Made by a program: the position numbers and the translations under genes
Origin: Cloacibacterium caeni
GTDB taxonomy: Bacteria > Bacteroidota > Bacteroidia > Flavobacteriales > Weeksellaceae
Assembly (NCBI RefSeq): GCF_907163125.1
Contig: NZ_OU015319.1
Location: forward strand, 1,054,001 to 1,118,000
Direction: 5' to 3'
DNA: 64,000 nt
Shown here: positions 1 through 50,834 of the stretch, one piece after another
Position numbering within the stretch: the stretch's first letter is position 1
Layout: each line of letters begins with the position of its first letter
Notes under the pieces: model-generated
What the model was told of the DNA's origin: nothing
What the model saw: the letters and a program-made list of their open reading frames with translations, nothing else
The model's database searches: none

Positions 1-31
1 TCTTCTGTTGCTTATTGTTATTATCATTCAT
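1..31 (-). CDS. Start of a divergent gene, possibly mobA-like mobilization protein (partial)
   Basis: On the minus strand an ATG at 29-31 opens a frame reading MNDNNNKQQK before the window ends. In related elements a mobilization protein (MobA) with a polar, Asn/Lys-rich N-terminus is commonly encoded divergently from the ParA/TraA gene. Only ten codons are visible, so the identity rests on position and composition. Confidence 0.35.
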   Translation of the reverse strand, partial: MNDNNNKQQK

Positions 32-6761: not shown

Positions 6762-7094
6762 ATGAACAATTACAACATAAACAAAGGCATTGGCAGGACA
6801 GTGGAATTTAAGGGACTGAAAGCACAATACCTGTTCATTTTCGCTGGCGGACTGCTCGGTACGCTCATCCTCGTGATGATACTGTATATGGCAGGCGTAA
6901 ACTCTTACATCTGCCTGTTCCTCGGAGCAGGCGGTGCTTCGCTCATTGTGTGGCAGACCTTTTCACTAAACAGGAAGTACGGCGAACACGGGCTAATGAA
7001 AATCGGAGCAGGAAAAAGACATCCCCGATACATCATTTGTCGCAAGCCTGTACACCGCTATCTGAAATTCACTCCTAAATCGAATGCCCTATGA
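6762..7094 (+). CDS. traF: Conjugative transposon TraF (DUF4133)
   Basis: 110 aa from the ATG at 6762, reading MNNYNINKGIGRTVEFKGLKAQY, the conserved DUF4133 N-terminus. An upstream in-frame ATG would run into traE. Two membrane helices (LFIFAGGLLGTLILVMILYMAG and ICLFLGAGGASLIVWQTF) give a VirB3-like topology. It overlaps traG by four bases (ATGA), so translation is coupled to the ATPase it probably assists at the inner membrane. Confidence 0.83.
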   Translation: MNNYNINKGIGRTVEFKGLKAQYLFIFAGGLLGTLILVMILYMAGVNSYICLFLGAGGASLIVWQTFSLNRKYGEHGLMKIGAGKRHPRYIICRKPVHRYLKFTPKSNAL

Positions 7095-9595: not shown

Positions 9596-9621
9596 TCATT
9601 AACATTTTAAAATTCATAAAA

Positions 9622-10254: not shown

Positions 10255-10256
10255 TT

Positions 10257-11252: not shown

Positions 11253-11273
11253 AAACAATCAAATCATTTAAAA

Positions 11274-11897
11274 ATGGAATTTAAAACATTAAGAAATATC
11301 GAAAACAGTTTTAGGCAAATACGGCTGTATGCCATTGTATTTGCCGTTCTCTGCCTAAGCGTGGTAGGATTTTCACTTTGGAAATCTTACAGCTTTGCAG
11401 ACGAACAACGCCAAAAAATCTATGTGCTGGATAATGGAAAATCGTTGATGCTTGCCTTATCGCAAGATGCAAGTATCAACCGACCTGTGGAAGCAAGGGA
11501 ACACGTCAGGCGTTTTCACGAACTCTTTTTTACGCTTGCTCCCGACAAGAACGCTATCGAAAGCAATATGAGCAGGGCATTCAACCTTGCCGATAAATCA
11601 GCTTTTGATTATTACAAAGACCTGTCGGAAAAGGGCTATTACAGCAGGATTATTTCGGGGAATGTACAGCAACGCATTGAGGTGGATAGTGTCGTGTGCA
11701 ATTTCGACACCTATCCTTATGCGGTGCGTACCTACGCCAAACAATTCATTATCCGTTCGAGCAACGTGACCAGGCGTAACCTGATTACTTCCTGTTATCT
11801 CGTGAACTCTGTCCGTTCGGACAACAACCCGCAAGGCTTCAACATCGAAAAGTTTGCAGTGATAGAAAACAGGGATATAGAAGTTATCGAACGCTAA
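11274..11897 (+). CDS. traK: Conjugative transposon TraK, VirB8-like
   Basis: 207 aa. It has a short cytoplasmic N-terminus (FKTLRNIENSFRQIRLYA), one membrane helix (IVFAVLCLSVVGFSLW, residues 22-37) and a periplasmic domain of mixed alpha/beta pattern. The pattern matches TraK of Bacteroidetes ICEs, corresponding to VirB8, a nucleation factor of the channel. It lies 21 bp after traJ. Confidence 0.87.
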   Translation: MEFKTLRNIENSFRQIRLYAIVFAVLCLSVVGFSLWKSYSFADEQRQKIYVLDNGKSLMLALSQDASINRPVEAREHVRRFHELFFTLAPDKNAIESNMSRAFNLADKSAFDYYKDLSEKGYYSRIISGNVQQRIEVDSVVCNFDTYPYAVRTYAKQFIIRSSNVTRRNLITSCYLVNSVRSDNNPQGFNIEKFAVIENRDIEVIER

Positions 11898-11909
11898 AAA
11901 AACAATCTT

Positions 11910-12338
11910 ATGGAAGCATTATCAGATTTAAGCACGTTTGCAAAAATCCTTACCGATAAAGGATATAACGGCTATTTCCATACGCAGGGAGCGTATGCTG
12001 GAAAGTTGAAGGAAAGTATCGGCGAATACCTCGAAAACTGCCAAAAAGGTACAGATAGTTTGCCTAAACAGGACTTGTTGCTGACGGGCTACCTGCAATG
12101 GTCGGGCGAAGACAAGCCAAGTGTAGAATGCAGTATGTGGGTAAAATACCTGAACGGCAAATTCTCGCTTAACAGAATGGAGGTTGCAAGGAAAGACCAA
12201 TTTGGGCAACTGCTGAAAAAATCGGAACTGACAAACCTGTCAGTCATATCCGCACCCAAAGCGGTTGAGGCAGTCGCTTTGGTCAATGAAGAACCGAAGC
12301 AAAAGGCAGGTCAAAGTCCTAAGCGTTTCAAGCTATAA
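11910..12338 (+). CDS. Unknown small protein inserted between traK and traL
   Basis: 142 aa, soluble, no signal peptide or membrane helix. The N-terminus (STFAKILTDKGYNGYFHTQ) is followed by a region that reads like a compact domain, then a Lys/Pro-rich tail. I do not recognise a family. CTnDOT itself has no gene here, but the tight spacing (12 bp after traK, 19 bp before traL) and matching codon use suggest it is part of the operon in this ICE lineage. Confidence 0.7.
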   Translation: MEALSDLSTFAKILTDKGYNGYFHTQGAYAGKLKESIGEYLENCQKGTDSLPKQDLLLTGYLQWSGEDKPSVECSMWVKYLNGKFSLNRMEVARKDQFGQLLKKSELTNLSVISAPKAVEAVALVNEEPKQKAGQSPKRFKL

Positions 12339-12357
12339 CAACAGAAATAGTAAGGTT

Positions 12358-12645
12358 ATGAAAAAACTAAGAGCAAATATGGACAGGTACTTTGACAAGC
12401 TGGACGAACGCTGGCGGGCATTGCCCTTGCGGAAACAGCACCAATACACACTTTACTTTTTTGTGGGGTATCTACTGCTTACGGCAGGTGTCATTTGCAA
12501 AGTATGGTACGATACCTCAAAGTCGGGTAACGATATGGTCATTGAGCATATCGAAAACCCTGTCCTCAAAAAAAGTGAAAGTCCTGCAAGATTGCAGGAC
12601 ACATTATCAACAATTCTAAAAAACAAGATTTATGAAAGAAAATGA
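12358..12645 (+). CDS. traL: Conjugative transposon TraL (DUF3989)
   Basis: 95 aa from the ATG at 12358, reading MKKLRANMDRYFDKLDERWR. A longer in-frame start at 12265 would overlap the preceding gene by 74 bp and lacks family support. A basic amphipathic N-terminus is followed by one membrane helix (YTLYFFVGYLLLTAGVICKVW). This fits DUF3989/TraL. It overlaps traM by 14 bases. Confidence 0.82.
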   Translation: MKKLRANMDRYFDKLDERWRALPLRKQHQYTLYFFVGYLLLTAGVICKVWYDTSKSGNDMVIEHIENPVLKKSESPARLQDTLSTILKNKIYERK

Positions 12646-13966
12646 GAACAAAAAGTCGGTTGTTCGGGTAACGGAAGGGAACCAGGCAGCAACCACTGAT
12701 GTACTGCAAGACGGTACACAGAACAAAGCCGAAAAGCTCAAAAAGCCACTCATATTTGGCTTAATGGGAATTGTCTTCGTAGGTTGTATGTACCTCATAT
12801 TTAAACCATCCGCAGACAAAAAGGAAATTGAGAACATCGGGCTGAACGATGCAGTACCGGAGGCTACCGGAGCAGGAATGCCTGCCGACAAAGGCAAGGC
12901 TTACGAGTTGGAAATGCTGGAACGCAAAGAGCAAGAAAAACGCAATGCACTTACCACGCTTTCTGACTATTGGAATACTGAAGACAAAAAAGAGCCTAAT
13001 GATGAATTTCCCGAAGAAGACGAAAACAGCAGCTATGGCGTTGGCAGAGGTTCGGGAAGAAACGGCAATCCTGCATTGAGCAGTTACCGCAATGCACAAA
13101 GCACATTGGGTTCATTTTATCAGGATAACAACTCTGAAACAACAGAACTCCGCAGGCAATTGGACGAACTAAAAGAACAATTAGCCGAGAAAGATGTACC
13201 TAAATCTGTAACCGTTGATGACCAGCTTGCCATAATGGAGAAATCCTACCAGATGGCGGCAAAGTATCTGCCAACAGGTACAAATTCGACAGAAGCCCCA
13301 CCTGCTAAGGATGCAGGTACGGCTACCGCAGGTTCAACTCAAAAGGAGCATTTTGTGGCATTCACACCTACAAGAAAGAACACCGTTTCCGCTTTGTATC
13401 GTGAGCCTACGGACAGTGCCTTTTTAGCCGATTGGAGCGAAACAAGAAACCGGGGCTTTTATACCGCAGGTTCTATTGAGCAAACGGCACAACCGAAAAA
13501 CAGTATCAAAGCCTGTGTACACGATGCGCAAACGGTTATTGGCGAAACAGGGGTACGATTGCGATTGTTAGAGCCAGCCCAAACGCCTCAACGTACCATT
13601 CCGAAAGGAACGATTGTAACAGCTAATGCCAAATTTCAGGGAGGTCGATTGCAGCTAAAGATTACCTCCGTAGAATTAGAGGGCAACATCATTCCGGTTG
13701 ATATTACTATTTACGATTTGGACGGACAGCAAGGCTTGTACGTTCCGTATTCGCCCGAAATGAACGCCCTTACCGAAATGGCGGGCAATATGAGCCAGAC
13801 TTCGGGAACAAGCATAATGCTCACGCAGAATGCAGGACAACAGGTTGCTGCTGATTTAAGCCGTGGCGTGGTACAGGGTGTTTCGGGCTATTTCGCCAAA
13901 AAGGTAAGAACCCCAAAGGTTACGCTAAAAGCAGGGCATCAGGTCTTCCTTGTATCTAAAAAATAA
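12632..13966 (+). CDS. traM: Conjugative transposon TraM, VirB10-like
   Basis: 444 aa. A single membrane helix (LIFGLMGIVFVGCMYLIF, about residues 39-56) is followed by a long Glu/Lys/Gln-rich periplasmic linker. The C-terminal domain (about 290-444: AQTVIGETGVRLRLLEPA, IPKGTIVTANAKFQGGRLQLKI) is TraM/VirB10-like. VirB10 proteins span the envelope and couple inner- and outer-membrane complexes. The end (KAGHQVFLVSKK) is typical of the family. Confidence 0.88.
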   Translation: MKENENKKSVVRVTEGNQAATTDVLQDGTQNKAEKLKKPLIFGLMGIVFVGCMYLIFKPSADKKEIENIGLNDAVPEATGAGMPADKGKAYELEMLERKEQEKRNALTTLSDYWNTEDKKEPNDEFPEEDENSSYGVGRGSGRNGNPALSSYRNAQSTLGSFYQDNNSETTELRRQLDELKEQLAEKDVPKSVTVDDQLAIMEKSYQMAAKYLPTGTNSTEAPPAKDAGTATAGSTQKEHFVAFTPTRKNTVSALYREPTDSAFLADWSETRNRGFYTAGSIEQTAQPKNSIKACVHDAQTVIGETGVRLRLLEPAQTPQRTIPKGTIVTANAKFQGGRLQLKITSVELEGNIIPVDITIYDLDGQQGLYVPYSPEMNALTEMAGNMSQTSGTSIMLTQNAGQQVAADLSRGVVQGVSGYFAKKVRTPKVTLKAGHQVFLVSKK

Positions 13967-13990
13967 TGTTGAACTCAAATAATTTAAACA

Positions 13991-14884
13991 ATGAAAAATC
14001 ATTTAAAAACCTTTTGGGCATTTGCCCTGATACTCGGCTTTGCCGTACAATCTTACGCACAGGATAGTGCAAAAACTCCGCTTGCATTAGGCAAGATAGA
14101 ACCGTATAGAATGGAAGTTACCTACGATAAAACTTCACATCTTATTTTTCCGACCGCCATCCGTTATGTGGATTTGGGAAGCGAATACCTGATTGCTGGA
14201 AAAGCGGAAGATGCGGAAAATGTATTGCGTGTAAAAGCATCGGTAAGGGAATTTGAAGCGGAAACCAATTTTTCAGTTATCACAAATGACGGGCGTTTTT
14301 ACAGTTTCAATGTGTATTACAGTCCCTATCCCGAAGCGTTGAGCTATGACCTCTTGACAATGCAAAAGGCGGTTGATAAAGCCAACGGAAACGATGTGCT
14401 TTTTGAAGAATTGGGCAACAATTCGCCATCATTGGCAGGCTTGCTTTTGGAAACCATTTACAAAAAGGACAAACGTATTGTAAAGCATATCGGGGCTAAG
14501 AGTTTCGGTATTCAGTTTATCCTCAAAGGTATCTACATACACAACGGCAAATACTATTTCCATACGGAATTGAGAAACCGTACCAATGTGCCGTTTCAGA
14601 TTGATTTTGTGAATTTCAAAGTGGTGGATAAAAAGGTAGCCAAACGTACCGTAGTGCAGGAACGCCCGATGATACCGCTTAGGACTTACAAACCATTGGA
14701 TGAGATTGGCGGAAAAACGACCGAGCAAAACGTGTTCCTGTTAGACCAATTTACCATTGCCGATGACAAGGTACTACTTATTGAGATTTTCGAGAAAAAC
14801 GGTGGCAGGCATCAGACACTCCAGATAGAAAATTCCGACTTAATCAAAGCTCGTTTGATTAACGATATGCACCTGAAATTTTAA
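13991..14884 (+). CDS. traN: Conjugative transposon TraN (DUF4138), VirB9-like
   Basis: 297 aa with signal peptide (FWAFALILGFAVQSYAQ, cleavage near residue 24). The DUF4138 features are clear: YRMEVTYDKTSHLIFPTAIRYVDLGS near the start of the mature protein and FGIQFILKGIYIHNGKYYFHTELRN in the middle. It probably forms the outer-membrane ring with TraM and TraO. The spacing to traM is 24 bp. Confidence 0.9.
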   Translation: MKNHLKTFWAFALILGFAVQSYAQDSAKTPLALGKIEPYRMEVTYDKTSHLIFPTAIRYVDLGSEYLIAGKAEDAENVLRVKASVREFEAETNFSVITNDGRFYSFNVYYSPYPEALSYDLLTMQKAVDKANGNDVLFEELGNNSPSLAGLLLETIYKKDKRIVKHIGAKSFGIQFILKGIYIHNGKYYFHTELRNRTNVPFQIDFVNFKVVDKKVAKRTVVQERPMIPLRTYKPLDEIGGKTTEQNVFLLDQFTIADDKVLLIEIFEKNGGRHQTLQIENSDLIKARLINDMHLKF

Positions 14885-14905
14885 TAACCTTTTAAAGTAA
14901 ATAAT

Positions 14906-15466
14906 ATGAAAAAGTATATCTATACCGTGATGCTCATCTTTATGGCCATCACGGTCACACAGGCACAAAGAATGTTACCTAAACAGAAAGGATTGGAAGT
15001 GAGTACGGGTGTGCTGTCCGATGATAAAATCGGTAACGATTATTACATCAATGTAGCAATGACCGTAAACGGCAAAAATGGTAACTACCAGCTTTGGGCG
15101 TTGGAATATACACACCAATACCACGATTATAAAGACCTCCGCATACCTCAGGAAACTTATACCGCAGAGGGCGGTTACAGTTTCTTCCTGTTGGGCGATG
15201 TTCGTAAGAACATCACGCTGAACTTTGGAATAACAGGCGTAGTCGGTTACGAAAGCATCAACCGTGGCGAAGCAATGTTGTATGACGGAGCGAAGATACT
15301 GAGCGAAGACAATTTTGTTTACGGAGCAGGCGGACGGCTCACATTTGAAACGTACCTGTCCGACCGTTTTGTGTTAGTCCTGCAAGGGCGTACAAAGGTT
15401 TTGTGGGGTACAGACTTGGAACAATTCCGACCGTCCGCAGGCGTGGGATTAAGGTTTAATTTTTAA
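14906..15466 (+). CDS. traO: Conjugative transposon TraO, outer-membrane beta-barrel-like protein
   Basis: 186 aa with signal peptide (YIYTVMLIFMAITVTQAQR). The mature part alternates short beta strands and ends in LRFNF with a terminal Phe, as in outer-membrane barrels. It matches the TraO pattern (RMLPKQKGLEVSTGVLS). It starts 21 bp after traN and is 8 bp from traQ. Confidence 0.86.
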   Translation: MKKYIYTVMLIFMAITVTQAQRMLPKQKGLEVSTGVLSDDKIGNDYYINVAMTVNGKNGNYQLWALEYTHQYHDYKDLRIPQETYTAEGGYSFFLLGDVRKNITLNFGITGVVGYESINRGEAMLYDGAKILSEDNFVYGAGGRLTFETYLSDRFVLVLQGRTKVLWGTDLEQFRPSAGVGLRFNF

Positions 15467-25439: not shown

Positions 25440-26765
25440 TTAAACCATAATTTCTTCGGTATTGTAAATTTTATCTGCGTTTGTATGTTCATTCAATAAT
25501 GCTATTTCTTCCCGTTCCATTTTAATAATAAACGCATCTTCCATTGCCTTAAATTTAGGCGAAACCAAATCCATATCCTTACTGATTTTTTGGCTGGTAA
25601 TCTTAGCATAAATCTGTGTAGTGGAAATATTCTTATGACCCATCATTTTGCTAAGGCTTTCAAGCGGAACACCCTCGGTCAAAAACATTGTGGCGAATGT
25701 ATGACGGGCGGTGTGGAATGTAACTTTCTGTTCTGTAACAATACCCGCTTCCTCAATAAGTTTACCTATATGCGTGTTGCAAGTCGCATTGGATGGCATT
25801 GGGAATACAAAATCATTTCTTGTAGCTCCACGATATTTCTCAATGATGCGTTTGGGGATTTCCAAAAGACGGACGTTGGAGGCAACATCTGATTTCTTTC
25901 TCCTGCTGATTATCCATTGGTGTCCATCAAAGAAAGACTGGATATTGCTCCATTTCAGTTTCTTAATGTCTATGTAAGAAAGCCCTGTGAAGCAACTGAA
26001 AATAAAAAGGTCTTTTACAAGTTCATATCGAGGCTTAGATGGTTTCAGGAGCATTAAGGTTTCTACATCCTCTTTTAAAAGGTAGCTGCGGTCGGTTTCT
26101 TCCATACTGATTTCATAATCCTCAAAAGGATTATCCCGTATCAAGCCTTTTTTAATAGCCAATTCTGCCAAAGCAATAACTGGCATTGTGTAAACCCAAA
26201 CCGTATTATGGGTACATTCCTTATCAATGCGAAGAAAGAAATCAAACTCACGAATAAAATCAGAAGTGAGTTCCCGGAAAGCCATATCGTCCCGATGGTA
26301 ACGCTCCCTTATAAATTCGCTAAGATGGTTGTAAACAGTGTTGTATTTGCTATACGTGCTTTGAGAGCGTTTTCCCTTAGCGACCATTTTTTCAAAGTCT
26401 TCATTTTGGTCTTTAAAGACTTTTAGTACGGCATCGTCCATTACACCAACACCCAAAAACGAGAGCTTTACTTTCTGTGCGGTCGCAAAACCCTCGTGCT
26501 TCAGCATATCTTCGTAAATCTTGTCGATACGACCCCGTACGTTATCCAGCTTTTGGTTAATGTTCAAAGCGGTGGCACTCTTGCCCTCAACTCTTCCGTA
26601 TTTTAAATCCCAATTTTTCGGGTTAATTTCTAACTTTGTTCCCAAAGTTTTAGCTGTTCCATCAATGGTAATACGTGCCATAATCGGTGCATTACCGTTC
26701 TTTTTCAGTTCGTTCTTTTTCAGGTAGAAAAGCAGTTTGAACGTGGACTTTTTTGTCTGTTCCAT
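25440..26765 (-). CDS. int: Tyrosine recombinase, ICE integrase (IntDOT-like subgroup)
   Basis: 441 aa. The N-terminal SAM-like arm-binding and core-binding domains (about 1-215) precede the catalytic domain: CFTGLSYIDIKKLKW, TFHTARHTFATMFL, MMGHKNISTTQIYAKI with the Tyr nucleophile. The position of the first catalytic Arg (normally TGLR) is Ser, as is known for IntDOT-type enzymes, while the HxxR and Tyr motifs are intact. It integrates and excises the ICE. The gene upstream on the same strand is the HTH gene at 27,025. Confidence 0.9.
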   Translation of the reverse strand: MEQTKKSTFKLLFYLKKNELKKNGNAPIMARITIDGTAKTLGTKLEINPKNWDLKYGRVEGKSATALNINQKLDNVRGRIDKIYEDMLKHEGFATAQKVKLSFLGVGVMDDAVLKVFKDQNEDFEKMVAKGKRSQSTYSKYNTVYNHLSEFIRERYHRDDMAFRELTSDFIREFDFFLRIDKECTHNTVWVYTMPVIALAELAIKKGLIRDNPFEDYEISMEETDRSYLLKEDVETLMLLKPSKPRYELVKDLFIFSCFTGLSYIDIKKLKWSNIQSFFDGHQWIISRRKKSDVASNVRLLEIPKRIIEKYRGATRNDFVFPMPSNATCNTHIGKLIEEAGIVTEQKVTFHTARHTFATMFLTEGVPLESLSKMMGHKNISTTQIYAKITSQKISKDMDLVSPKFKAMEDAFIIKMEREEIALLNEHTNADKIYNTEEIMV

Positions 26766-30009: not shown

Positions 30010-31608
30010 CTAAACTAAATACTTTTTAATTGCAGAATTCAAAATATGGCTTTTCTTTCTGTGTTGATGTATAAATAATTTTGAATCAAATATTTTAACA
30101 CATCTATTTAGATAACTAAAGTAATTAGATTGTTTTTTTATGTCTATTTTTTTTGAAATCAAATCAAACTCTCCTTTTTCGTTTTTAACTAAAAATGTTT
30201 TCTTTCTAAAGACTTGTTTTATTTCATTATGTTCATTATCCAATTGCCTTAGAGGTCTTTTGTAAAGCTTTTTAACTTGATTTTTAAAAATAGCTTTTGG
30301 AATCATTGGATTGTTATCTTTTTTAGCTCTTTTTGCTCTTCTTTTAACTATACTTATTAATCTTCTATAGAACTTCGCAACATTAGTAGATTTAATACAT
30401 ACATTATACCCTCGAAACTCAAAACCTAAATAGATTAAAGGTGCATTTTTTATTTCTTTTTTTTCTATAATTTTAAAGGAAGTAAGCCTAGTTTCTTTAT
30501 TTAAATTATATGTCTCATTTTTAAAAACAAATTTCTCGGTTTTTTCAGTACTAATTTCAAGATTGCTCTCTTTAATTAAATTTTCAATATAGTTTTTATT
30601 TTTTTCTAGTGAGTCAATATTACAAATAAGAATAATGTCATCTGAATACCTTCTATAAAAACCATTCTCTTTTAAAACAACATTTTCAATAATTTTTTTG
30701 TCAAATTCTAAAAGATATAAATTTGCTAAAACTGCACTAATTGGAAGTCCTTGTGGAATACCTACATTAACTTTATTATGATAAAAAGGATTTTGATAAA
30801 TCCTTAATTTTCCCGATTTAATATGTTCTCTAAAATCCTTATTGTCTTCAAAAAAACATTTATAACCTTTGTATTTCCTAATATTGCAAAGCTTTTTTTC
30901 ATCAAATCCTTTTCTTCTACCAGATTTAACATTTCCAATTCTTAAATCATCTTTTAATATATACCTAAATTGTGTACAAGATTTAAAAACATTTTTATGG
31001 TCTTTTGGGAGCTCATTAAAACCCATAATATTTGCCCATCTCTTCTCTAATATAGAATGATCTAGTCTTGAAAAAAAACTTTTAATATCAAAAGTTAAAA
31101 CACCAACTTCGTCTGCTTCCCCTCTCCTTTTTATTTCTTCAAATACTTCATTTGCAAAATGAATAGTACTTTTACCTTTTTCCGATGTTGATGAAACTTT
31201 TATTTTCCTATAAGCATTTACAGATTCATTTAGTTCATTATTTTTCTTGAGTTCATTCTCATATTTTTCACTTATCAGACTTGCATAATAACCATAAATT
31301 AGCGCATCAAAATGACTTGCGTAATGTAGAGGTCTATTTTTAGCAGTCTTTTCATTGCCTCCTTTTTCTAGTTTAAAATTATGAGTTCTTAATGTTTTAT
31401 TCAGATGTTTAGACGAATCAACCTTTTTAAATTTTCTTTCACGAATAATGGAATGCAAAAGAGGATAAAAAGCATATTTAGCAACAAAATCAGGGTTTTC
31501 AATTTTAGCTTTGTAATGTTTCCAATTTTCAGAAATATGTAAACTTTTAGAGACATGAATATATCCCTTAGTTTTCATCCAAATTGGCATTTCGTTTTTT
31601 TGAGTCAT
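30010..31608 (-). CDS. Defence-type (DRT/UG-like) reverse transcriptase
   Basis: 532 aa. RT motifs: RPLHYASHFDALIYGYYA (about 92-109), FDIKSFFSRLDH with the first catalytic Asp (about 173-184), GIPQGLPISAVLANLYL (about 283-299), and YRRYSDDIILI with the YSDD active site (321-324). The pattern of an N-terminal W.....GY segment, AYR plus IHFANEVFEEI before motif A, and no maturase or endonuclease domain argues against a group II intron and for an UG/Abi defence RT. DRT2 resembles it most to my eye, but the class is not certain. A candidate 294-nt RNA ends 8 nt before the start codon. AT-rich. Confidence 0.85.
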   Translation of the reverse strand: MTQKNEMPIWMKTKGYIHVSKSLHISENWKHYKAKIENPDFVAKYAFYPLLHSIIRERKFKKVDSSKHLNKTLRTHNFKLEKGGNEKTAKNRPLHYASHFDALIYGYYASLISEKYENELKKNNELNESVNAYRKIKVSSTSEKGKSTIHFANEVFEEIKRRGEADEVGVLTFDIKSFFSRLDHSILEKRWANIMGFNELPKDHKNVFKSCTQFRYILKDDLRIGNVKSGRRKGFDEKKLCNIRKYKGYKCFFEDNKDFREHIKSGKLRIYQNPFYHNKVNVGIPQGLPISAVLANLYLLEFDKKIIENVVLKENGFYRRYSDDIILICNIDSLEKNKNYIENLIKESNLEISTEKTEKFVFKNETYNLNKETRLTSFKIIEKKEIKNAPLIYLGFEFRGYNVCIKSTNVAKFYRRLISIVKRRAKRAKKDNNPMIPKAIFKNQVKKLYKRPLRQLDNEHNEIKQVFRKKTFLVKNEKGEFDLISKKIDIKKQSNYFSYLNRCVKIFDSKLFIHQHRKKSHILNSAIKKYLV

Positions 31609-31616
31609 AATAAAAA

Positions 31617-31910
31617 ACCTTGTGGTAAAGTTCTAGCAATAGTGATATTTATTTTACATAAACCTCCTAAGAGCGGACTAGCACCCAATTACTGAGTCAT
31701 TGTATTTTTCGTAAACTAGGACAAGATTTAACTTTAACTATAAATAATTATCTAATGAAAACAATTATTAAGTTCCTATTTATTATCTTTACAGGTGGAA
31801 TCTCAATTGTTGGAGACTACCTGGTTGATAAATTAATTGCCTGCATAAAGCAGTAAGACTAAAAGTCCTGTAGTCCTTACCAATTGTAAAAAATCAACTT
31901 ACCACAAGGT
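31617..31910 (-). ncRNA. Candidate RT-associated noncoding RNA closed by a 12-bp stem
   Basis: The ends are perfect inverted repeats, ACCTTGTGGTAA (31617-31628) and TTACCACAAGGT (31899-31910), extendable by 3 bp with one bulge. Inside is a hairpin at 31792-31823 (CAGGT/ACCTG and TCTC/GAGA) and a CTGC/GCAG hairpin near 31,841-31,853. A good Bacteroidetes promoter reading towards the RT ends 3 nt before the 5' arm, so transcription should start close to 31,910. Known RT defence systems of the DRT2, DRT9 and DRT10 types use an upstream ncRNA as template. The 3' arm adjoins the RT start and may hide its ribosome site. Confidence 0.65.
31755..31856 (+). other. 33-codon ORF antisense to the candidate ncRNA
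   Basis: ATG at 31755 to TAA at 31854-31856 encodes 33 residues: a basic start (MKTIIK), a hydrophobic helix (FLFIIFTGGISIVGDYLV) and a KLIACIKQ end. It resembles small membrane-active peptides. It lies on the strand a first cDNA would represent. It may be chance, since AT-rich DNA easily gives such frames. Confidence 0.3.
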
Positions 31911-31913
31911 AAA

Positions 31914-31945
31914 CAAATATAAAAAAAACTAACATCATGGACAAA
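31914..31945 (-). promoter_or_regulatory. Promoter of the candidate ncRNA and RT
   Basis: On the minus strand TTTG (31942-31945), 20 bp, then TATATTTG (31914-31921), an exact match to TTTG-N19/20-TAnnTTTG. It overlaps the start codon region of the divergent gene at 31,937, so the two transcription units may interfere with each other. Confidence 0.65.
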
Positions 31946-33166
31946 TTAAACATTGGGGATTTAGTATCTCTAAAGTCTCACCCTTTTAATATCTTTAATG
32001 AATCTTTAATTGGTGCTTTTGTTGATAACACACCTCCCATTATGGTCATTTCTGAAGTTTTAAAATCTAATTCTTATGATACTGAATCCGAAGAACTAGA
32101 TATAGAAACTAAGAAAGCAAAAAAGTTACCCAATCAATATCTATGTTATTTTTATTCTTCTAAAACTTCTACATTTGAAAAACATTGGTTCAAACAAAAT
32201 GAAATAAAAAAAATAGATTCTGATACTGAAAACAATCAAGGAAAAGTCACAAAAACTGAAGATAAAGTAAGTTTATTGAATAAGTATAAAGACAACCTTG
32301 TAGTTTTAAAATCCGCTGACTTAGAACTAAGTAAAAAGAAAACAACTTGGTCAAGAACCAAAGAAGAAGACATCAATAAGACTCAAGCTTTTTTAGAATT
32401 CTTATCTCCAGTAATGACTGTAATTGAAGTAGTGGAGAATCAAAATTTCAATAAAGATAGAGTCAATCCCAAAAATGGAGAAATTAAAAGGGAGTCTTGT
32501 AAATTTCTTTTGAAATGCAAATGGTTTAATCCTATTAAGCAAACTTTTTCAGAAGAAATTATACCTTACAAAATTCTGCAAATAGTTGAATTTAATTCAA
32601 ATAAAATAGAACTCATAAAAAGGGGGATAAATACAAAAAATGTATTCCAACTAATAGAAAAAGATTTAAATATTTCATTAGAAAATTTAAGATATAGTTT
32701 CAACAAATATATCATAGAATTAAAAGAAGTTGTAATTCAAAATCATACAATAAAAATTTTCTATAAAAACTTAATAAACAATAAAATAGAAAGTAAAACA
32801 ATTGAAAATTTAGAAATCATAGATTCAGAAAAGGAATTTAAACAATTTGTAGATTCAGAATTTCCTAATTACTCAAATATCGAGTATAACAATCCACTAA
32901 AATTGGAATGGCAAAAAGATAAATTTTACAAAATTGACTATTTAGATAAAAAAGGAAAATTTACAACTAGAATTATTACAAATTGTAAAGTAGAAGAATT
33001 TGAAACTGAAGATGAAGAGAAAGATGTAAAATTTGTCATTGCCAATTGTCTTTTACGAGAAGGTAAAATTAGACATTTTAGAGTAAGCAATATTACAGCA
33101 AGGTCTGAATTAAAAGATGATTTTAAAGATATTATTGGTTATGGCATTAAACCCCATGATAAGTAA
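31937..33166 (+). CDS. Protein with two YodC-like (DUF2158-like) domains, divergent partner of the RT
   Basis: 409 aa. Residues 4-90 read LNIGDLVSLKSHPF ... PPIMVISEV ... YLCYFYSSKTSTFEKHWFKQNEI, a YodC-like SH3-type pattern. A second copy spans about 140-215 (SPVMTVIEVV ... LKCKWFNPIKQTFSEEIIPYKILQIV). The C-terminus (about 320-400: KFYKIDYLDKKGKFTTRII ... LREGKIRHFRVSNI) resembles a WYL-like beta barrel. Nucleic-acid or ligand sensing is an inference. It diverges from the RT/ncRNA unit, shares its promoter region, and ends at a bidirectional terminator. No catalytic motif is visible. Confidence 0.6.
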   Translation: MDKLNIGDLVSLKSHPFNIFNESLIGAFVDNTPPIMVISEVLKSNSYDTESEELDIETKKAKKLPNQYLCYFYSSKTSTFEKHWFKQNEIKKIDSDTENNQGKVTKTEDKVSLLNKYKDNLVVLKSADLELSKKKTTWSRTKEEDINKTQAFLEFLSPVMTVIEVVENQNFNKDRVNPKNGEIKRESCKFLLKCKWFNPIKQTFSEEIIPYKILQIVEFNSNKIELIKRGINTKNVFQLIEKDLNISLENLRYSFNKYIIELKEVVIQNHTIKIFYKNLINNKIESKTIENLEIIDSEKEFKQFVDSEFPNYSNIEYNNPLKLEWQKDKFYKIDYLDKKGKFTTRIITNCKVEEFETEDEEKDVKFVIANCLLREGKIRHFRVSNITARSELKDDFKDIIGYGIKPHDK

Positions 33167-33176
33167 AAGTAAAAAT

Positions 33177-33209
33177 AAAACAGCGTTTAAATCTTTTAAA
33201 CGCTGTTTT
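33177..33209. terminator. Bidirectional terminator between the YodC-like gene and mcrC
   Basis: AAAACAGCGTTTAA and TTAAACGCTGTTTT form a 14-bp stem with a 5-nt loop, with T-rich ends on both strands. It includes the last codons and the stop of mcrC. Confidence 0.85.
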
Positions 33210-34572
33210 TTATTGGTAAGCAAATCCCCATTTTATAGATATTCTGATAAGCTTTTATTTCAGATATTTTAAGTTCGATATCTTTATTAAGAGTAGGATA
33301 AATGATAAGACAATCGATAATTTGATTATTATTTACCTTATCAGAAAAATAGTTATACACTCTTTTTAATCGTGAATAGCCAGCTACCTGTCTCATATCC
33401 TGATGCTCTTTACTGTTTTCATAGTGTAGTTTATATTTAGCATCAATGATTACTGGTGAAATATTTTCTTTCTCGGGATTCTTATAAAAACCTATGAAGT
33501 CTACTTCATTTCCAAATGTTCTCCAATGATATTTAATTAGATTATACTCTTGGTTATCCAACAATCTTTTATAGGCATACAGCTCAAATAAGCGGCTCAT
33601 ATCTATCCAATATGGAGGTGTTTTTCGCATAGTTTTAATTGATTTGGTTATAGAGTAGGAAAAGTTTTTTAAAATAAGCTCACCTATCTGTATTGCATCT
33701 TTGTATTCTTTGTAAAACTTATTATGTTTTATTCCTTTTATTTCTCTAATGTTATCAAGCGGAGTAATCAAATCAAATGCAGAAGAAATATAATTTAAAG
33801 TATGCTGGATTTCTGAATTCGCTGATGATAACAGTCCTTTGTTAGCTGATAGGTAGTTTTTCACAAATTCCAATACTTTTTTTAGAAATTGGTTTTCAAT
33901 ACTATTAAAGCCAAATTCCTGATATTTACAATAGGTATTGGTGACTCTGTTCTTAAGATGATTTAATTTTATTGTTTGTGGAACTAAAATTTTACCTTTT
34001 ATCCTGCTGTTCAGATTTTCTTCTACAGAATAATAAGATTTTTTCAGTCCTTTCTTAACAATTGTTTTCATTATATATAAAAACTGTAGAACTAAAAAAG
34101 GAGATAAATAATCATTATCCAAATGATCTACTTCTATTTCAGTAGCGTTCCAGTCAATATCTAAAAGTGCTGAAATTTCTTTGGTTGCATTGGGAAGCTT
34201 AACTATTTCAGAGAGCATTTTCACAACATCTACTTCTGGCAATGACTTTACCTCATCTTCATTTTCAATCTTGGCTTTTATTGCATTATCAATATTTTCA
34301 TCATCTAGATTTTCATGAATAAGCTTTAGAAGTTTACTATTTACTTTTGGAGAAATAAAAATAGGATGACCATTGGGAATTGTTCCCACTCCAATATAAT
34401 AATTAGCTTTTATGGTACACTTTTGAACATCATTTTCTGTCTTATTCTCATATTGAAAAACAGGACAATTATTATCTTTCTTGAAATATAATCCTTTTTT
34501 TATTTCAAGATGCTCAATTTCTTGCCCCCAATGTTCGTAAAGTCTTATAAGTCTATGCGAATCGTTGCTCAA
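33196..34572 (-). CDS. mcrC: McrC-like restriction nuclease subunit (locus 1)
   Basis: 458 aa. The C-terminal PD-(D/E)xK core is seen as NEVDFIGFYKNPEKENISPVIIDAKYKLHYE with the Asp and DAK residues, after the YWIDMSRLFELYAYKRLL helix of the McrC family. McrC cleaves modified DNA when driven by McrB. It overlaps mcrB by 20 bp and is the last gene of the hsdR-hsdM-hsdS-mcrB-mcrC operon. Its last codons are inside a terminator stem. Confidence 0.9.
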   Translation of the reverse strand: MSNDSHRLIRLYEHWGQEIEHLEIKKGLYFKKDNNCPVFQYENKTENDVQKCTIKANYYIGVGTIPNGHPIFISPKVNSKLLKLIHENLDDENIDNAIKAKIENEDEVKSLPEVDVVKMLSEIVKLPNATKEISALLDIDWNATEIEVDHLDNDYLSPFLVLQFLYIMKTIVKKGLKKSYYSVEENLNSRIKGKILVPQTIKLNHLKNRVTNTYCKYQEFGFNSIENQFLKKVLEFVKNYLSANKGLLSSANSEIQHTLNYISSAFDLITPLDNIREIKGIKHNKFYKEYKDAIQIGELILKNFSYSITKSIKTMRKTPPYWIDMSRLFELYAYKRLLDNQEYNLIKYHWRTFGNEVDFIGFYKNPEKENISPVIIDAKYKLHYENSKEHQDMRQVAGYSRLKRVYNYFSDKVNNNQIIDCLIIYPTLNKDIELKISEIKAYQNIYKMGICLPIKNSV

Positions 34573-36727
34573 TTTCTTTTATTTTAACAGTTGCTTTTTC
34601 ATTGAAAACACCATCTTTTAGATATTCGTTGAGAATAGGAATCACTTCATATTTCATTTTCATATTAAAATATTCCTGCTTGTTATCTTCCGAAATTTTC
34701 TTTTTGTCTGCTATAAAATAACTGTGTCCTAGAGCGACATCTTTTGCTGAAAAATCATCTGAAAGGAAATCAGAATTTTCTGCATTTTCAAAATCTACTA
34801 CATCATCTTCTCCTATTTTGATGAATAATTTTGCAACATCCATAAAATCAGTTGTATTAAAATAGATTTCACTATTATCTTCTAATTTTTCTGGCAATAC
34901 CTCCACAAATGCAAATCTTCTTCTGATGGCGTAATCTATATGCCCCACACTTCTATCGGCGGTGTTCATGGTACCGATGATGTAAAGATTTTCTGGTAAA
35001 CGTAAAGTAAAATTCTCTTTATTTTCTCCTTCGTCATCAATTATACCATACATGCTTAAAACTTCAGCCTTCTCACGTTCTCTTTGTGTATCATTAAATT
35101 TATATCTATATTCTAGGGCATAAATTAATTCACCTAAAACTGAAGATAAATTTGCACGGTTAATTTCATCAATAATTAATATATATTTTTCATTCTCATT
35201 TTTAAATGCCTTGTCTGCATAATCAGCAAGAATTTTATTTTTAGCTTTATAAATTATTCCATTAGTAGTAGTTACAGCATTTATTCCTCTTACAAAATCT
35301 TCATAAGTATAACTTGGGTGAAACTGAATTATTTTATATTCTCCTCCTTTTGATACAACTTCAGAAATTATAATATCATTAAAATTTTCGTCTTTTAAAT
35401 CAAATTTTTCATATAAATGCTTCATTAAAACTATAGAAGAAATAGGGCTTTTCAAATTAGTTTTTAATTCATTAAATTTATTATTGATTAATATATTCAA
35501 TTGAATATCATCGTAATTATTTATCTCTATTTTAAAAATCTTTGCAAAAATTTTAAGATGCTTTTTTGAAAGAACAGGAAAATAATCATTAGGAAAATAA
35601 GAATGTAAAACTTTTAGTATAAAGCTATACCAAAACTTCATTTCTCTAGCTTTTGAATAGTCTTTAGATGAGGCTAAATCTACCAACATTTTTCTTAATT
35701 TAGCCATATATGATTCTGGATTTTCACCAAAGTCTACTCTAACATCTCCATTATCTTTATTAAAGGAAATACCGTATGCCGTAGTTCCAGCAGGACCAGG
35801 ACTAAAGCGACACGTATATGCTAATGCTTTTTCTATGTAATAACAAAATGATTCTTTCGAGCCATTACCTAAAGCATAATCCTCAATATCAATACTTTCT
35901 AATTTTGAAATTGGGAAAATATCTTGGAATTCTTTTAAAAGTTTCTCAGATTTTGTATCAATTTCTAATGTAAGATCAGTTGCTTTAAAATTCTTTATAT
36001 ATTCTTCAGCATAGTCTGAAATAGAAACAATAGACTTATTCCCAATAAATTGATTTGCAATTTCTTCAGCCATTCTCGTCTTACCAGTACCTGGAGGACC
36101 TTGTAAGATGATTTGTTTTTTGTATTTTAAAATATCAATTTTTTCTTGAATGCTTTCCATTTGTATTGATAAGTTCTTTTTATTTCTTGTTAATAAATTT
36201 TTTTCTTTGTAAACCAACTTATAAACCTCTAATTGTTTAATTAAATCTGATAAGAGTTTTTGATAATCATCATTTTGTATTGTATTATTAGTAATAGGAA
36301 TTAAATTTCCAAAAAGAATAAATTCTCCTTCTTCCATAACACCTAATTCATCTTGACTACCTATTATGAAGGAATAATCTGGTAAAATTTGATAAATTTT
36401 ATCTGATATATTTTTAAAGGCTTTTCCGAAATCATTTGCAATCTCTGCTGGATCGTCATTATTAAAAGAACCTCTTTGGCTATTTATAGCTAAACCATAC
36501 CCAATTTTCCCTTCTCTTAAAAAAATGTGATACTGTATTTCCTTTTTTCCACCTCTATTATAAACCCATTCAGATTTCTTGTCATCGAATTCTGAAAACA
36601 TGATGTAATTAGGCAAATTAGTTAATCCCGCTAAAAATTTTCTGGAATTTCGAAAATCATTCTTAAATTCTTGTCCAAGATCATTTTCGATAGTATGGAC
36701 AAGTTCTTCAAAATTATTGAAAGTCAT
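34553..36727 (-). CDS. mcrB: McrB-like AAA+ GTPase (locus 1)
   Basis: 724 aa. Walker A is GPPGTGKT (210-217), Walker B LIIDEINRANLSSVLGELIYALE, and the sensor region IIGTMNTADRSVGHIDYAIRRRFAF, all diagnostic of McrB. The N-terminal about 190 residues would recognise the modification; they do not resemble the N-domain of the second McrB in this window. About 240 residues are inserted between Walker A and B, longer than in E. coli McrB. It follows hsdS with a 31-bp gap in the same operon. Confidence 0.9.
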   Translation of the reverse strand: MTFNNFEELVHTIENDLGQEFKNDFRNSRKFLAGLTNLPNYIMFSEFDDKKSEWVYNRGGKKEIQYHIFLREGKIGYGLAINSQRGSFNNDDPAEIANDFGKAFKNISDKIYQILPDYSFIIGSQDELGVMEEGEFILFGNLIPITNNTIQNDDYQKLLSDLIKQLEVYKLVYKEKNLLTRNKKNLSIQMESIQEKIDILKYKKQIILQGPPGTGKTRMAEEIANQFIGNKSIVSISDYAEEYIKNFKATDLTLEIDTKSEKLLKEFQDIFPISKLESIDIEDYALGNGSKESFCYYIEKALAYTCRFSPGPAGTTAYGISFNKDNGDVRVDFGENPESYMAKLRKMLVDLASSKDYSKAREMKFWYSFILKVLHSYFPNDYFPVLSKKHLKIFAKIFKIEINNYDDIQLNILINNKFNELKTNLKSPISSIVLMKHLYEKFDLKDENFNDIIISEVVSKGGEYKIIQFHPSYTYEDFVRGINAVTTTNGIIYKAKNKILADYADKAFKNENEKYILIIDEINRANLSSVLGELIYALEYRYKFNDTQREREKAEVLSMYGIIDDEGENKENFTLRLPENLYIIGTMNTADRSVGHIDYAIRRRFAFVEVLPEKLEDNSEIYFNTTDFMDVAKLFIKIGEDDVVDFENAENSDFLSDDFSAKDVALGHSYFIADKKKISEDNKQEYFNMKMKYEVIPILNEYLKDGVFNEKATVKIKEIEQRFA

Positions 36728-43942: not shown

Positions 43943-44731
43943 TTAAACAATATTTTCAAAGGAAAGAGTTCGGTACTGTACCGGACTCTTTCCTTTGAGA
44001 TTGAGTCTTATTCTATCATTGTTGTAATAGTGAATGTACTTCACTATTTCCTTCTTAAGTTCCTGAATGGAACCAAACTTTCTGGTATAAAACATTTCTG
44101 ATTTTATCGTTCCAAAAAAGTTTTCTATCACCGCATTGTCCAAACAGTTTCCTTTTCGGGACATACTTTGAATAATACCTTTTTCTTTTAACAAGTTTTG
44201 GTAATGTTTCATTTGATATTGCCAACCTTGATCAGAATGTAGAATGATGTTTTGTGTAGATTTTACTTTTCTGAATGATTTCTTTAGCATTCTGATGATT
44301 TGGCTAAACACAGGTCTTTCAGATAAGTCAAAACTGACAATTTCACCATTAAATAAATCGATGATTGGAGATAGGTAAAGTTTATTACCCGATACATTAA
44401 ACTCTGTAACATCGGTTGCCCATTTCTGATTAGGAGTGTCCGATTTGAAATTCCTCTGTAGAACATTGGGCGCAATTTTCCCTTGCTCTCCCTTGTAAGA
44501 TTTATATTTCTTCACTCGGATAATACTCTTTAAACCTAATATTTTCATAAGTCGTAAAACAGTTTTGTGATTAATCAAAATTCCTTTTTCTTTCAAAAGC
44601 AAAGTAATTCTTCTATAGCCCAACCTTCCTTTATGACGATGATAAATCTGCTTAATCATTTCTTTTATTTCCGCATATTTATCTTTCATTTGAAAGCGTT
44701 TTTGATAGTAATAAAAACTGCTTCTTGCCAT
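43943..44731 (-). CDS. IS3-family transposase OrfB (DDE), copy 1
   Basis: 262 aa. The rve-type DDE domain shows WATDVTEF (D), HSDQGWQYQ (D) and NCLDNAVIENFFGTIKSE (E), after an HTH_21 region (YHRHKGRLGYRRITLLLKEKG). It is normally made as an OrfAB fusion by -1 frameshifting; the frame is open upstream of the ATG to the overlap with orfA. It differs by only about two residues from copy 2. Confidence 0.93.
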   Translation of the reverse strand: MARSSFYYYQKRFQMKDKYAEIKEMIKQIYHRHKGRLGYRRITLLLKEKGILINHKTVLRLMKILGLKSIIRVKKYKSYKGEQGKIAPNVLQRNFKSDTPNQKWATDVTEFNVSGNKLYLSPIIDLFNGEIVSFDLSERPVFSQIIRMLKKSFRKVKSTQNIILHSDQGWQYQMKHYQNLLKEKGIIQSMSRKGNCLDNAVIENFFGTIKSEMFYTRKFGSIQELKKEIVKYIHYYNNDRIRLNLKGKSPVQYRTLSFENIV

Positions 44732-48160: not shown

Positions 48161-49300
48161 TTACATTTCAATCTTTAATTCCGGAATTATTTCTGCTGCT
48201 TCTCTTGCTTTAGAATCTACAATTTTTGCATAAATCTGTGTGGTTCTCAGTTCTCTATGTCCTAATCTTTTTGAAACGGTGTAAATATCTGCACCATTTT
48301 CCAATAACAAAACTGCATTAGTATGTCTTGCTGAATGAAAAGTAATATGCTTAGAAACAGCTGCACGATTGCACCATCTTATAATTTCTGTATTGTAAGT
48401 CATTCCATATTTCAAACCCTTAAAAACTCTTTCCTGTTGCTCTTGTTTTTCACCTAACAATTCTCTGGCTTGTTTTGAGATATACAAGTACTCTACTCCA
48501 TCTGTTTTTTCTTGTCTGAAATTTACCTTGCTTACGTCTCCTTCATCTCTCACTTCGCACCACTTTAAAGTATTGATATCTGACCAACGAAGACCAGATA
48601 AACACGAAAAAAGAAATGCTTTTTTCAAAACTGGATATTTACACTCTGATTTTGCTAAAGATTGTAATTCATCAAAAGTGAGATATTCTCTCTGACTTTC
48701 TGCTTGTTCAAATGATTTTACTTTAGTAGAATAATTAATAGAAAGAAAGCCGTCATCAAAGGCTTTTTTTAGACAAGCTTTAAATTTGTTGAAGTAAGAA
48801 TGTTTTGAATTTTGGGATAAAGGCAAGTTACTTTTTGTAATAGCTTGTTTATCAAAATAATCCTTCACTTTTTTTACAAAATTTTCATCAATCTCATCGA
48901 AAGTTAGATTTGTTGGGACTATTTTCTTTAAATGAACATAAGTAGATTTCCAGTTTCCATAATTATCATGAGAAAAATTAATTTCTCTATCATCTACCAT
49001 TTCAGAAAAGAAATTCAGAAAGGTTCTTTTTGCTTTTGTTGTATTTTTAATATCAAATTTACCTTGAATGTATTCCGTTTGTCTAATTGCTAGAATATTT
49101 TCCGCAAGCTTCAAAGTTTCTTTGTTCTCATTTTTTTCAACTTGCGTTTTTGGATTCTTATGCAAATACAATTGAAGATTTTCATAATCTCTTAAATGCT
49201 TTCTTTTACCATCTTTTGAAACAACGGAACCTTTGTAATATTCAATGAATATACTTTCTCTTCCATCTGCAAGTTTTCTTTTGTATATAGATATTTTCAT
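48161..49300 (-). CDS. int: Tyrosine recombinase, integrase of the mnmE island
   Basis: 379 aa from the ATG at 49298-49300 (MKISIYKRKLADGRESIF). A longer frame with a TTG start at 49342 would run through the repeated binding sites and is unlikely. SAM-like core-binding domain (about 100-205), then the full catalytic set: CLSGLRWSDINTLKW (Arg), HSARHTNAVLLL (HxxR), LGHRELRTTQIYAKI (Tyr). Unlike the ICE integrase it keeps the first Arg. It lies 149 bp from the mnmE att site it presumably uses. Confidence 0.92.
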   Translation of the reverse strand: MKISIYKRKLADGRESIFIEYYKGSVVSKDGKRKHLRDYENLQLYLHKNPKTQVEKNENKETLKLAENILAIRQTEYIQGKFDIKNTTKAKRTFLNFFSEMVDDREINFSHDNYGNWKSTYVHLKKIVPTNLTFDEIDENFVKKVKDYFDKQAITKSNLPLSQNSKHSYFNKFKACLKKAFDDGFLSINYSTKVKSFEQAESQREYLTFDELQSLAKSECKYPVLKKAFLFSCLSGLRWSDINTLKWCEVRDEGDVSKVNFRQEKTDGVEYLYISKQARELLGEKQEQQERVFKGLKYGMTYNTEIIRWCNRAAVSKHITFHSARHTNAVLLLENGADIYTVSKRLGHRELRTTQIYAKIVDSKAREAAEIIPELKIEM

Positions 49301-49353
49301 AAGTAGTACATTTGTACTACTTTTTGGTGACAAGTAGTACAATCGTAGTACAA
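49301..49353. repeat. Cluster of GTAGTAC sites upstream of the island integrase
   Basis: AAGTAGTACA at 49301 and 49332, the inverted GTACTACTTT at 49314, and GTAGTACAA at 49345. They match the inverted repeat at 27,686-27,841, as expected of integrase arm-type sites at both island ends, and overlap the integrase promoter region. Confidence 0.65.
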
Positions 49354-49448: not shown

Positions 49449-49466
49449 TTATTTCCCGATACAGAA
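49449..49466. other. att site, copy forming the 3' end of mnmE
   Basis: TTATTTCCCGATACAGAA on the + strand. It encodes FCIGK-stop of MnmE on the minus strand, so integration leaves the protein unchanged. Confidence 0.85.
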
Positions 49467-50834
49467 CTTAGAAAAAATATTCCCCAATACTTCATCATTG
49501 GTAAATTCCCCAGAGATTTCACCCAGATGTTCTAGAGCATTTCTAAGTTCGTACGCTAATAATTCAGTAGAAATTTGATGAGTAATGGCTTCTTTTACTT
49601 TATAAACCGCGTCAATAGATTTTTGAAGAGATTCGTAGTGTCTTTGGTTGGTAATCACCACGTTGCTTTCAGATTTTAGGTGTTCTACATAAGTAGAAAG
49701 TTCATCTTTTAAATCCTGAAGATGAATATTTTCCTTAGCCGAAATTTTCAACAACTCATGCGCAGGAATTTCAGATTGAAGGGTTTTGGCAATGTTTTGT
49801 GCTTTTTCTTCGGCTTGTTCTACTTCATCAATTTTAGTAAGACAAATAATGATTTTCAAATCTTCTCTTGCCAATTCCTGTAGCATGGCAAGGTCGTCTT
49901 TTAAATCGGTAGTTGCAACATCAATCAAATACACCAAAACATCAGCTTGAGCCACTTTTTCTTTGGCTTTTACCACGCCTATTGCTTCTATGGCATCTTC
50001 TGTTTCACGCAAACCAGCGGTATCAATAAGTCGAAAAGCATTTCCTTTGATGTGCAAAACCTCTTCTATCGTATCACGAGTGGTACCTGCAATATCTGAA
50101 ACAATGGCTCTTTCTTCTTTTAAAAGAGCATTCAGTAAAGTAGATTTTCCAGCATTTGGTTTTCCGATAATGGCTACTGCAACTCCACTTTTAATTGCGT
50201 TTCCGTATTGGAAACTGTCAATCAAAGATTTCAGTTTGCTTTCTATTTTTTGAAGCAGTTGTACCAATGCAGTTCTATCTGCAAATTCCACATCTTCTTC
50301 CGCAAAATCTAATTCTAATTCAATCAAAGAAACAAAATTGAGCAAGTCATTTCTCAAAACAGAAATCTCCTGAGAAATGCCACCTTTCAGCTGTTGAAGA
50401 GCTACTTTTCTGGACGCTTCATTCTCCGAAGCAATAAGGTCGGCAATAGATTCGGCTTGACTCAGGTCTATTCTACCGTTCATAAAAGCACGCATGGTAA
50501 ACTCCCCTGCTTTTGCCATTCTTGCACCATTTTTAATCAAGACTTCTAAAATTCTTTTGCCAATATGCGGAGAACCATGGAAAGAAATTTCCACAGAATT
50601 TTCGGTAGTGAAAGATTTGGGAGCCAGAAAGATAGAAACCATTACTTCATCGATGACTTCATCTCCATCTTTGATGAAACCATAATGTACGGTATGAGAT
50701 TTCTGTTGGGTAAGTGCTTTTCCATCAAAGCATTTTTCACAGATTTCTATGGCTTGTTCTCCAGAAACTCTAATAATTCCTATCGCTCCAATTCCATTGG
50801 CAGTAGCGAGTGCACAAATAGTGTCTTGATTCAT
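49449..50834 (-). CDS. mnmE: tRNA uridine-5-carboxymethylaminomethyl modification GTPase MnmE
   Basis: 461 aa, full length. N-terminal TrmE domain (DTICALATANGIGAIGIIRVSG), G1 motif GKPNAGKS (224-231), switch region IAGTTRDTIEE, DTAGLRET as G3, LTKID as G4, and the C-terminal CIGK motif with the catalytic Cys. With MnmG it modifies wobble U34 of tRNAs. The last six codons are provided by the island's att copy. Core chromosomal gene. Confidence 0.97.
   Translation of the reverse strand: MNQDTICALATANGIGAIGIIRVSGEQAIEICEKCFDGKALTQQKSHTVHYGFIKDGDEVIDEVMVSIFLAPKSFTTENSVEISFHGSPHIGKRILEVLIKNGARMAKAGEFTMRAFMNGRIDLSQAESIADLIASENEASRKVALQQLKGGISQEISVLRNDLLNFVSLIELELDFAEEDVEFADRTALVQLLQKIESKLKSLIDSFQYGNAIKSGVAVAIIGKPNAGKSTLLNALLKEERAIVSDIAGTTRDTIEEVLHIKGNAFRLIDTAGLRETEDAIEAIGVVKAKEKVAQADVLVYLIDVATTDLKDDLAMLQELAREDLKIIICLTKIDEVEQAEEKAQNIAKTLQSEIPAHELLKISAKENIHLQDLKDELSTYVEHLKSESNVVITNQRHYESLQKSIDAVYKVKEAITHQISTELLAYELRNALEHLGEISGEFTNDEVLGNIFSKFCIGK

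Follow-up and report, generated by a model that had tools for sequence, protein, structure and literature searches.

A candidate mini-gene opposite the template RNA of a Bacteroidota DRT2-family reverse transcriptase with a WYL-YodC partner

Within a 64,000-nucleotide (nt) stretch of the Cloacibacterium caeni genome (RefSeq assembly GCF_907163125.1, contig NZ_OU015319.1, positions 1,054,001 to 1,118,000; hereafter the window), a reverse transcriptase (RT), a non-coding RNA (ncRNA) upstream of it and a divergently transcribed partner gene make up a single locus (Table 1, window coordinates). The RT belongs by profile and fold to the DRT2 family of defense-associated reverse transcriptases (DRTs), and the strand complementary to its putative template carries a short open reading frame (ORF) with its own start and stop codons, for which comparison with related loci supports protein-coding constraint at the amino-acid level. 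We consider it slightly better than an even bet that the locus is a DRT2-family RT-ncRNA system of a Bacteroidota branch, accompanied by a WYL-YodC partner, in which a complete mini-gene is copied with each template.

Related loci were collected by an alignment-based scan of the genome_contigs collection, which matched 164 loci, of which the best 80 were used; because the scan alignment was built from partner-bearing RTs, the set favours the partner-bearing branch. A single-sequence RT scan of the same collection returned no relatives, the viral_contigs collection gave no match, and phage records gave three distant ones. The set of 83 comprises every partner-bearing locus but L031, a repeat of L051; 56 remain after removal of similar loci, and 37 form an anchored subset. 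An ORF was scored when it started with ATG, spanned at least 25 amino acids (aa) and reached a 17-residue mean hydropathy of at least 1.6, a criterion set after the ORF had been noticed, first in the window locus and 16 relatives and then across the whole set. It was passed on the complement of the ncRNA in 71 of the 83 loci, the window locus included, versus 12 on the ncRNA strand, and among the non-redundant loci in 45 versus 7 of 56, while control strands from other intergenic gaps of the same loci passed in 22 of 182 cases. The complementary ORF is longer than its ncRNA-strand counterpart in 75 of the 83 loci and shorter in 7. In 35 of the 37 anchored loci its stop codon lies 3' of the conserved 5' motif of the ncRNA, which places it within the putative template.

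Constraint on the encoded peptide was assessed in 15 disjoint pairs, hand-picked from a list of similar ORFs with identical pairs and low-identity matches excluded. The ratio of nonsynonymous to synonymous polymorphism (pN/pS) in the ORF frame is 0.563, compared with 0.800 (standard deviation 0.073) for column shuffles, none of 2000 being as low, and with 0.65-0.96 for the five other frames; the corresponding divergence ratio (dN/dS) is below 1 in 14 of the 15 pairs, and indels have a length that is a multiple of three in 9 of 16 cases within the ORF and 11 of 58 outside. These values bear directly on a reading in which the ORF is an untranslated by-product of RNA structure and base composition, with the complementary DNA (cDNA) or the partner acting as the effector, as in DRT9 and DRT10. 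The AT-rich template and the unexplained promoter of the ORF would suit such a by-product, as would a hydropathy advantage over dinucleotide shuffles that reaches p<0.05 in 59 of the 83 loci rather than in all; constraint beyond both column shuffles and the five other frames, together with the strand-specific recurrence of the ORF, argues against it, and we regard it as very improbable.

The assignment of the RT rests on concordant profile and structure matches. Its best PADLOC model is Drt2 (E 6e-122), both Drt2 models match all 38 members scanned, and the closest PDB sequences are Drt2 chains (E 1.6e-38); against the NCBIfam Drt2 model NF041746 it scores 306.5 bits, under the curated equivalog cut-off of 390. 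The AlphaFold model, with a predicted local distance difference test (pLDDT) score of 87.3, best matches the DRT2 structure 9c0i. The template-modelling (TM) score is 0.84 when normalised by target length and 0.68 when normalised by query length; no other chain of the 50 listed exceeds 0.66 and 0.43, respectively. In a tree of 63 RTs, the nearest relatives are Weeksellaceae (Bacteroidota), and all 50 YodC-labelled rows group together (support 85), next to 11 relatives without the partner; one of the 50, L107, carries the label even though its contig stops short of the partner position. The tree derives from a short search, includes several long-branched partner-less rows, and is limited to DRT2 relatives and two outgroup RTs, so that alone it does not separate DRT2 from other RT groups. 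The 2.98-Mb genome to which the window belongs holds one match to the RT, and among 395 sampled genomes of the phylum a long RT match is found in 12, the window genome included, with the partner present in 5 of these 12.

The 294-nt region upstream of the RT is a conserved structured ncRNA with a covarying closing stem. Its predicted fold is more stable than that of 200 out of 200 shuffles (z -3.49), and no Rfam family matches the window between 29500 and 33300. The pattern TTTG-TATATTTG, which we take to be the Bacteroidota promoter consensus, has its sole match in the window, at spacers of 19-21, in front of this region (0.19 expected), its -33 box (31942-31945) overlapping the opening codons of the divergent partner. 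Across relatives, a TAnnTTTG box is found in 56 of the 83 loci, with 6.2 expected from shuffles, and a TTG lies 17-21 nt upstream of it in 7 loci (0.6 expected). Two motifs are conserved across the aligned relatives, one at the 5' side around TTTTTACA and the other at the 3' side (ACAATGACTCAG...TTGGGTaCT...TATGTAAA); the motif ATGACTCA occurs also at the RT start codon. The closing stem was tested in those 55 of 82 loci whose promoter box could be placed, the other 27 being dropped as the box was not found or the partner lies on the same strand: pairing with the locus's own arm averages -24.5 kcal/mol, compared with -14.6 kcal/mol for arms swapped in from other loci, and the own arm ranks best or second best in 39 of the 55. 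A further helix, P2, joins the ACA-1 side of the template to TATGTAAA with own and swapped means of -8.9 and -6.6 kcal/mol; as own helices rank anywhere from 1 to 32 of 37, its support is weaker than that of the closing stem, and at the window locus it reaches just -5.3 kcal/mol. The helices considered were nested ones.

Re-checking of the sequence agrees with a preliminary description of the locus, made from the DNA letters, in its RT with a YSDD active site, its 294-nt region ending 8 nt from the RT start and bounded by a perfect 12-bp inverted repeat, its exact-consensus promoter 3 nt before that repeat, and its divergent 409-aa gene. That description had noted no intron or diversity-generating retroelement (DGR) hallmarks and proposed a functional RT-ncRNA pair, DRT2-like or of a sister class, and it had named covariation of the fold and linkage of the divergent gene as checks. 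The best RT matches, in sequence and in fold, are DRT2 rather than intron or DGR RTs, the closing stem covaries, and both the intergenic region and the partner are conserved; a functional-looking, DRT2-like pair with a linked partner is supported. The complementary-strand ORF had been overlooked.

By analogy with the Klebsiella pneumoniae system KpnDRT2 (PMC11100668, PMC12039810), the putative template boundaries were placed at two ACA motifs. Both flank the putative template at the window locus, and among 17 aligned loci ACA-1 is present in all 17 and ACA-2 in 15. The KpnDRT2 repeat units are stop-free and multiples of three in length (PMC12039810), which raises the alternative that ours is an ordinary DRT2 whose true template is shorter and lies inside an open frame, rolling-circle copying yielding the endless ORF known as neo. 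The shared RT family and ncRNA layout, as well as the two ACA motifs, fit this alternative, and with free choice of ACA..ACA boundaries 84-240 nt apart a stop-free segment with a length that is a multiple of three can be found in 45 of the 83 partner loci, a number expected wherever a long ORF lies. No such ACA-bounded segment exists at the window locus, however. Nor did fixed boundaries bring out a classical endless ORF: every pair scanned, shifted by -9 to +12 and -21 to +3 nt relative to the motifs, gave a stop-free unit in at most 3 of the 37 anchored loci, in a scan that used wrong anchors for L046 and L066; these were corrected for the helix P2, promoter-pattern and template-length analyses. 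Moreover, motif-to-motif lengths in the anchored loci fall into all three classes modulo 3 (14, 17 and 6 loci), with putative templates of 176-253 nt in the group of the window locus. Among the 11 partner-less loci, a stop-free ACA..ACA unit is found in L124, annotated as drt2, and in L036, L038 and L041, but in neither L122 nor L123, both also annotated as drt2, nor in L035, L037, L039, L040 and L126; the ACA rule is an imperfect control. Taken with its points on either side, we consider the ordinary endless-ORF reading unlikely.

Expression of the ORF is the aspect on which another alternative turns, a type I toxin-antitoxin pair. The peptide would then come from an ordinary antisense gene on the chromosome, with the ncRNA serving as antisense antitoxin to that gene and the RT having some other target. 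A small hydrophobic ORF exactly opposite a structured RNA is what such a pair would present, and type I toxins resemble such hydrophobic peptides in size. The pattern TTG-(16..22)-TAnnTT[TC]G also occurs somewhere on the complementary strand in 8 of 37 genomic regions (1.1 expected). Placed within 150 nt upstream of the ATG, however, it is found in 1 of the 83 genomic loci (L083), in a scan limited to this one Bacteroidota-type pattern, and neither Pfam nor NCBIfam has a family matching the window peptide at E up to 5. Of four other peptides scanned, one (L054) matched DUF1398, under the family cut-off. The RT, the ACA motifs and the scaffold instead reproduce the layout of DRT2, in which the coding strand is complementary to the ncRNA, and we give the toxin-antitoxin reading distinctly little credence.

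The scarcity of that pattern ahead of the ATG also weighs against a mini-gene copied from the template, and it does not stand alone. Across a simple ACA-1/ACA-2 junction a single one of the 34 listed loci (L052) has the pattern and the window locus lacks it, L050, L051 and L070 having been left out of the 37 as their chosen ORF start lies outside the template; and with matches in 6 of 37 concatemers (1.6 expected) versus the 8 genomic regions, concatenation does not raise the number of matches. A degenerate sequence, TAnnnTTYG, spans the putative junction in the window locus and some relatives but comes without a -33 box, and we do not claim it as a junction promoter. The ACA-2 position reads ACG in L046 and L047 and GTG or GCG in many more distant loci. 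In twelve of the 83 loci no complementary ORF passes the criterion, a low pN/pS is seen in one reverse frame as well (0.646), and dN/dS is 1.30 for the pair L116/L120 and 0.83 for the pair of the window locus with L042. The loci are related, so that the counts overstate independence. Finally, when 395 genomes of the order were searched later, eight RT loci emerged that were examined as possibly new, four of which repeat earlier ones; L136 is the only further independent partner-bearing locus, and its complementary ORF of 84 aa has a hydropathy of 1.39, below the 1.6 required. The other three (L140, L142 and L143) have no long divergent ORF upstream, a same-strand partner not having been looked for; L140 and L142 pass the ORF criterion on the complement, yet also on the ncRNA strand, and L143 fails it. 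Among the 11 partner-less loci, the complement passes in five (L035, L036, L038, L124 and L126) and the ncRNA strand in three (L035, L037 and L040); the presence of hydrophobic complementary ORFs in these DRT2 relatives suggests that the hidden ORF may have existed before the partner.

With a profile made from five partner sequences, the partner gene is found beside the RT in 79 of the 80 related loci, the 80th (L107) having 463 nt of upstream DNA only, which bears out the proposed conserved linkage. The gene is divergent in 74 loci and lies on the RT strand in five (L108, L113, L114, L115 and L119), there as a YodC-like gene upstream of the ncRNA region; the match in L095 is weak (E 1.6e-5). 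The PADLOC models RTasWYL-YodC and RTasYodC match 49 and 48 of 49 partners scanned, including that of the window. Pfam recognises WYL in 26 of the 49 and, at weak score, DUF2158, which we take to be the YodC family, in 2. The two YodC-like domains of the preliminary description are both visible by eye in the alignment consensus, and a WYL domain that it had missed follows them: in the predicted structure (pLDDT 87.6), where a whole-model Foldseek search gave weak scattered matches, the WYL match stood out in a second look, with residues 219-300 resembling the WYL domains of PafBC, BrxR, CapW and DriD at Z scores of 6.7-8.0, values that can arise by chance, yet with all 13 top rows being WYL proteins. 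The regulators PafBC, BrxR, CapW and DriD carry a DNA-binding domain ahead of the WYL domain, whereas the partner has its YodC-like parts instead. Among 395 genomes of the class, profile matches reach the N-terminal YodC part in G000, G214 and G088, all RT-linked, and weakly in G435, while the others start at profile position 215 or later, in the WYL part. The partner is thus a member of an RT-associated type already catalogued, PADLOC-DB 2.0 filing both models under DRT, and the claim that a YodC-like companion lies outside described DRT systems does not hold. The PADLOC names, presumably originating with Mestre et al. 2022 (NAR), denote association only; our literature search found no paper joining YodC and defense-associated reverse transcriptases and no mechanism in print.

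Returning to the copied mini-gene that we favour, the RT would bind the ncRNA and copy the template between ACA-1 and ACA-2, repeatedly by analogy with KpnDRT2 and perhaps upon phage infection. Each cDNA copy would hold an entire small gene bounded by start and stop codons of its own rather than a slice of an endless ORF. Transcription of the cDNA from many mini-gene copies would then provide a short peptide, membrane-active or helix-forming, by which the infected cell is arrested. The partner, whose WYL domain resembles sensors such as DriD bound to single-stranded DNA, is probably a sensor or handler of the cDNA or a regulator of its expression. For the more general proposition, that the whole DRT2 branch writes a finished small gene repeatedly from RNA with the WYL partner sensing or gating single-stranded cDNA, we see even chances.

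The window system resembles KpnDRT2 (PMC11100668, PMC12039810) in RT sequence and fold, in an ncRNA upstream of the RT, in ACA-1 and ACA-2 around the putative template, in a coding strand that is the ncRNA complement and in a hydrophobic predicted product. In contrast to the endless ORF of KpnDRT2, it has a complete ORF with its own stop; its group has putative templates in all length classes modulo 3, compared with 111-129 nt in multiples of 3; at its putative junction no sigma-70 or Bacteroidota promoter was recognised, one Bacteroidota-type pattern having been scanned; and it pairs a 532-aa RT with a WYL-YodC partner, where KpnDRT2 has a 425-aa RT and no further protein-coding gene. Tang et al. 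(PMC11100668) described divergent DRT2 clades with a predictable ncRNA in which Neo annotation was 'more challenging', suggesting alternative mechanisms. The available portions of PMC12039810, PMC11100668, PMC13213688, PMC12632851 and PMC12596737 yielded no stop-terminated DRT2 product and no WYL-YodC function, which is no proof that such an ORF is unreported. For a clade of the type described by Tang et al., the ORF offers a concrete product open to single-codon tests. In the model, the template can be copied without an endless frame being required, and a catalogued, unexplained partner gains a role to seek. If the model is true for the branch, DRT2 would have two or more means of concealing a gene that arrests growth, the endless-ORF neo being one of them. 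The locus suggests a new strategy for storing a dangerous gene within RNA until it is required.

Table 1. Features of the locus, in window coordinates unless residues are stated.
Feature	Position	Strand	Basis
DRT2-family reverse transcriptase, 532 aa, YSDD	30010..31608	-	PADLOC, PDB, AlphaFold model
ncRNA ending 8 nt before RT start, covarying closing stem	31617..31910	-	fold z, motifs, stem test
3' arm of closing stem	31617..31628	-	perfect 12-bp repeat
5' arm of closing stem	31899..31910	-	perfect 12-bp repeat
ACA-2, putative template start, in conserved motif ACAATGACTCA	31701..31703	-	alignment
Putative RT template, 184 nt (no multiple of 3)	31704..31887	-	analogy with KpnDRT2
Candidate hidden ORF, cDNA-sense, MKTIIKFLFIIFTGGISIVGDYLVDKLIACIKQ, own ATG and TAA, hydrophobic 33-aa peptide	31755..31856	+	
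ACA-1, putative template end, predicted pairing with UGU of UAUGUAAA in 3' scaffold	31885..31887	-	alignment, helix P2
ncRNA promoter, Bacteroidota-type, TTTG-20-TATATTTG (20-bp spacer)	31914..31945	-	pattern search; consensus as assumed by us
Divergent partner, 409 aa	31937..33166	+	PADLOC RTasWYL-YodC (E 4e-89), linkage, fold
Partner parts: two YodC-like; WYL; C-terminal Sm-like (weak)	WYL about residues 219-300; Sm-like residues 318-393		YodC-like parts by eye

By ORF reading and weak PADLOC matches, the RT has as neighbours a HipA-like gene, McrBC-like genes and a type I restriction system, and two separate McrBC-like gene pairs can be read in the window (33196-36727 and 59464-62755). Conjugation-like genes and a tyrosine recombinase, likewise named by reading, occupy 7091-15466 and 25440-26765, and an integrative conjugative element may carry the defence genes at 28-42.6 kb. 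Further along, a tyrosine recombinase adjoins the 3' end of an mnmE-like gene (48161-49342 and 49449-50834, names by reading), a place where a second mobile element may have integrated, and two near-identical IS3-like transposase genes (43943-44731 and 55722-56510) bracket about 11 kb.

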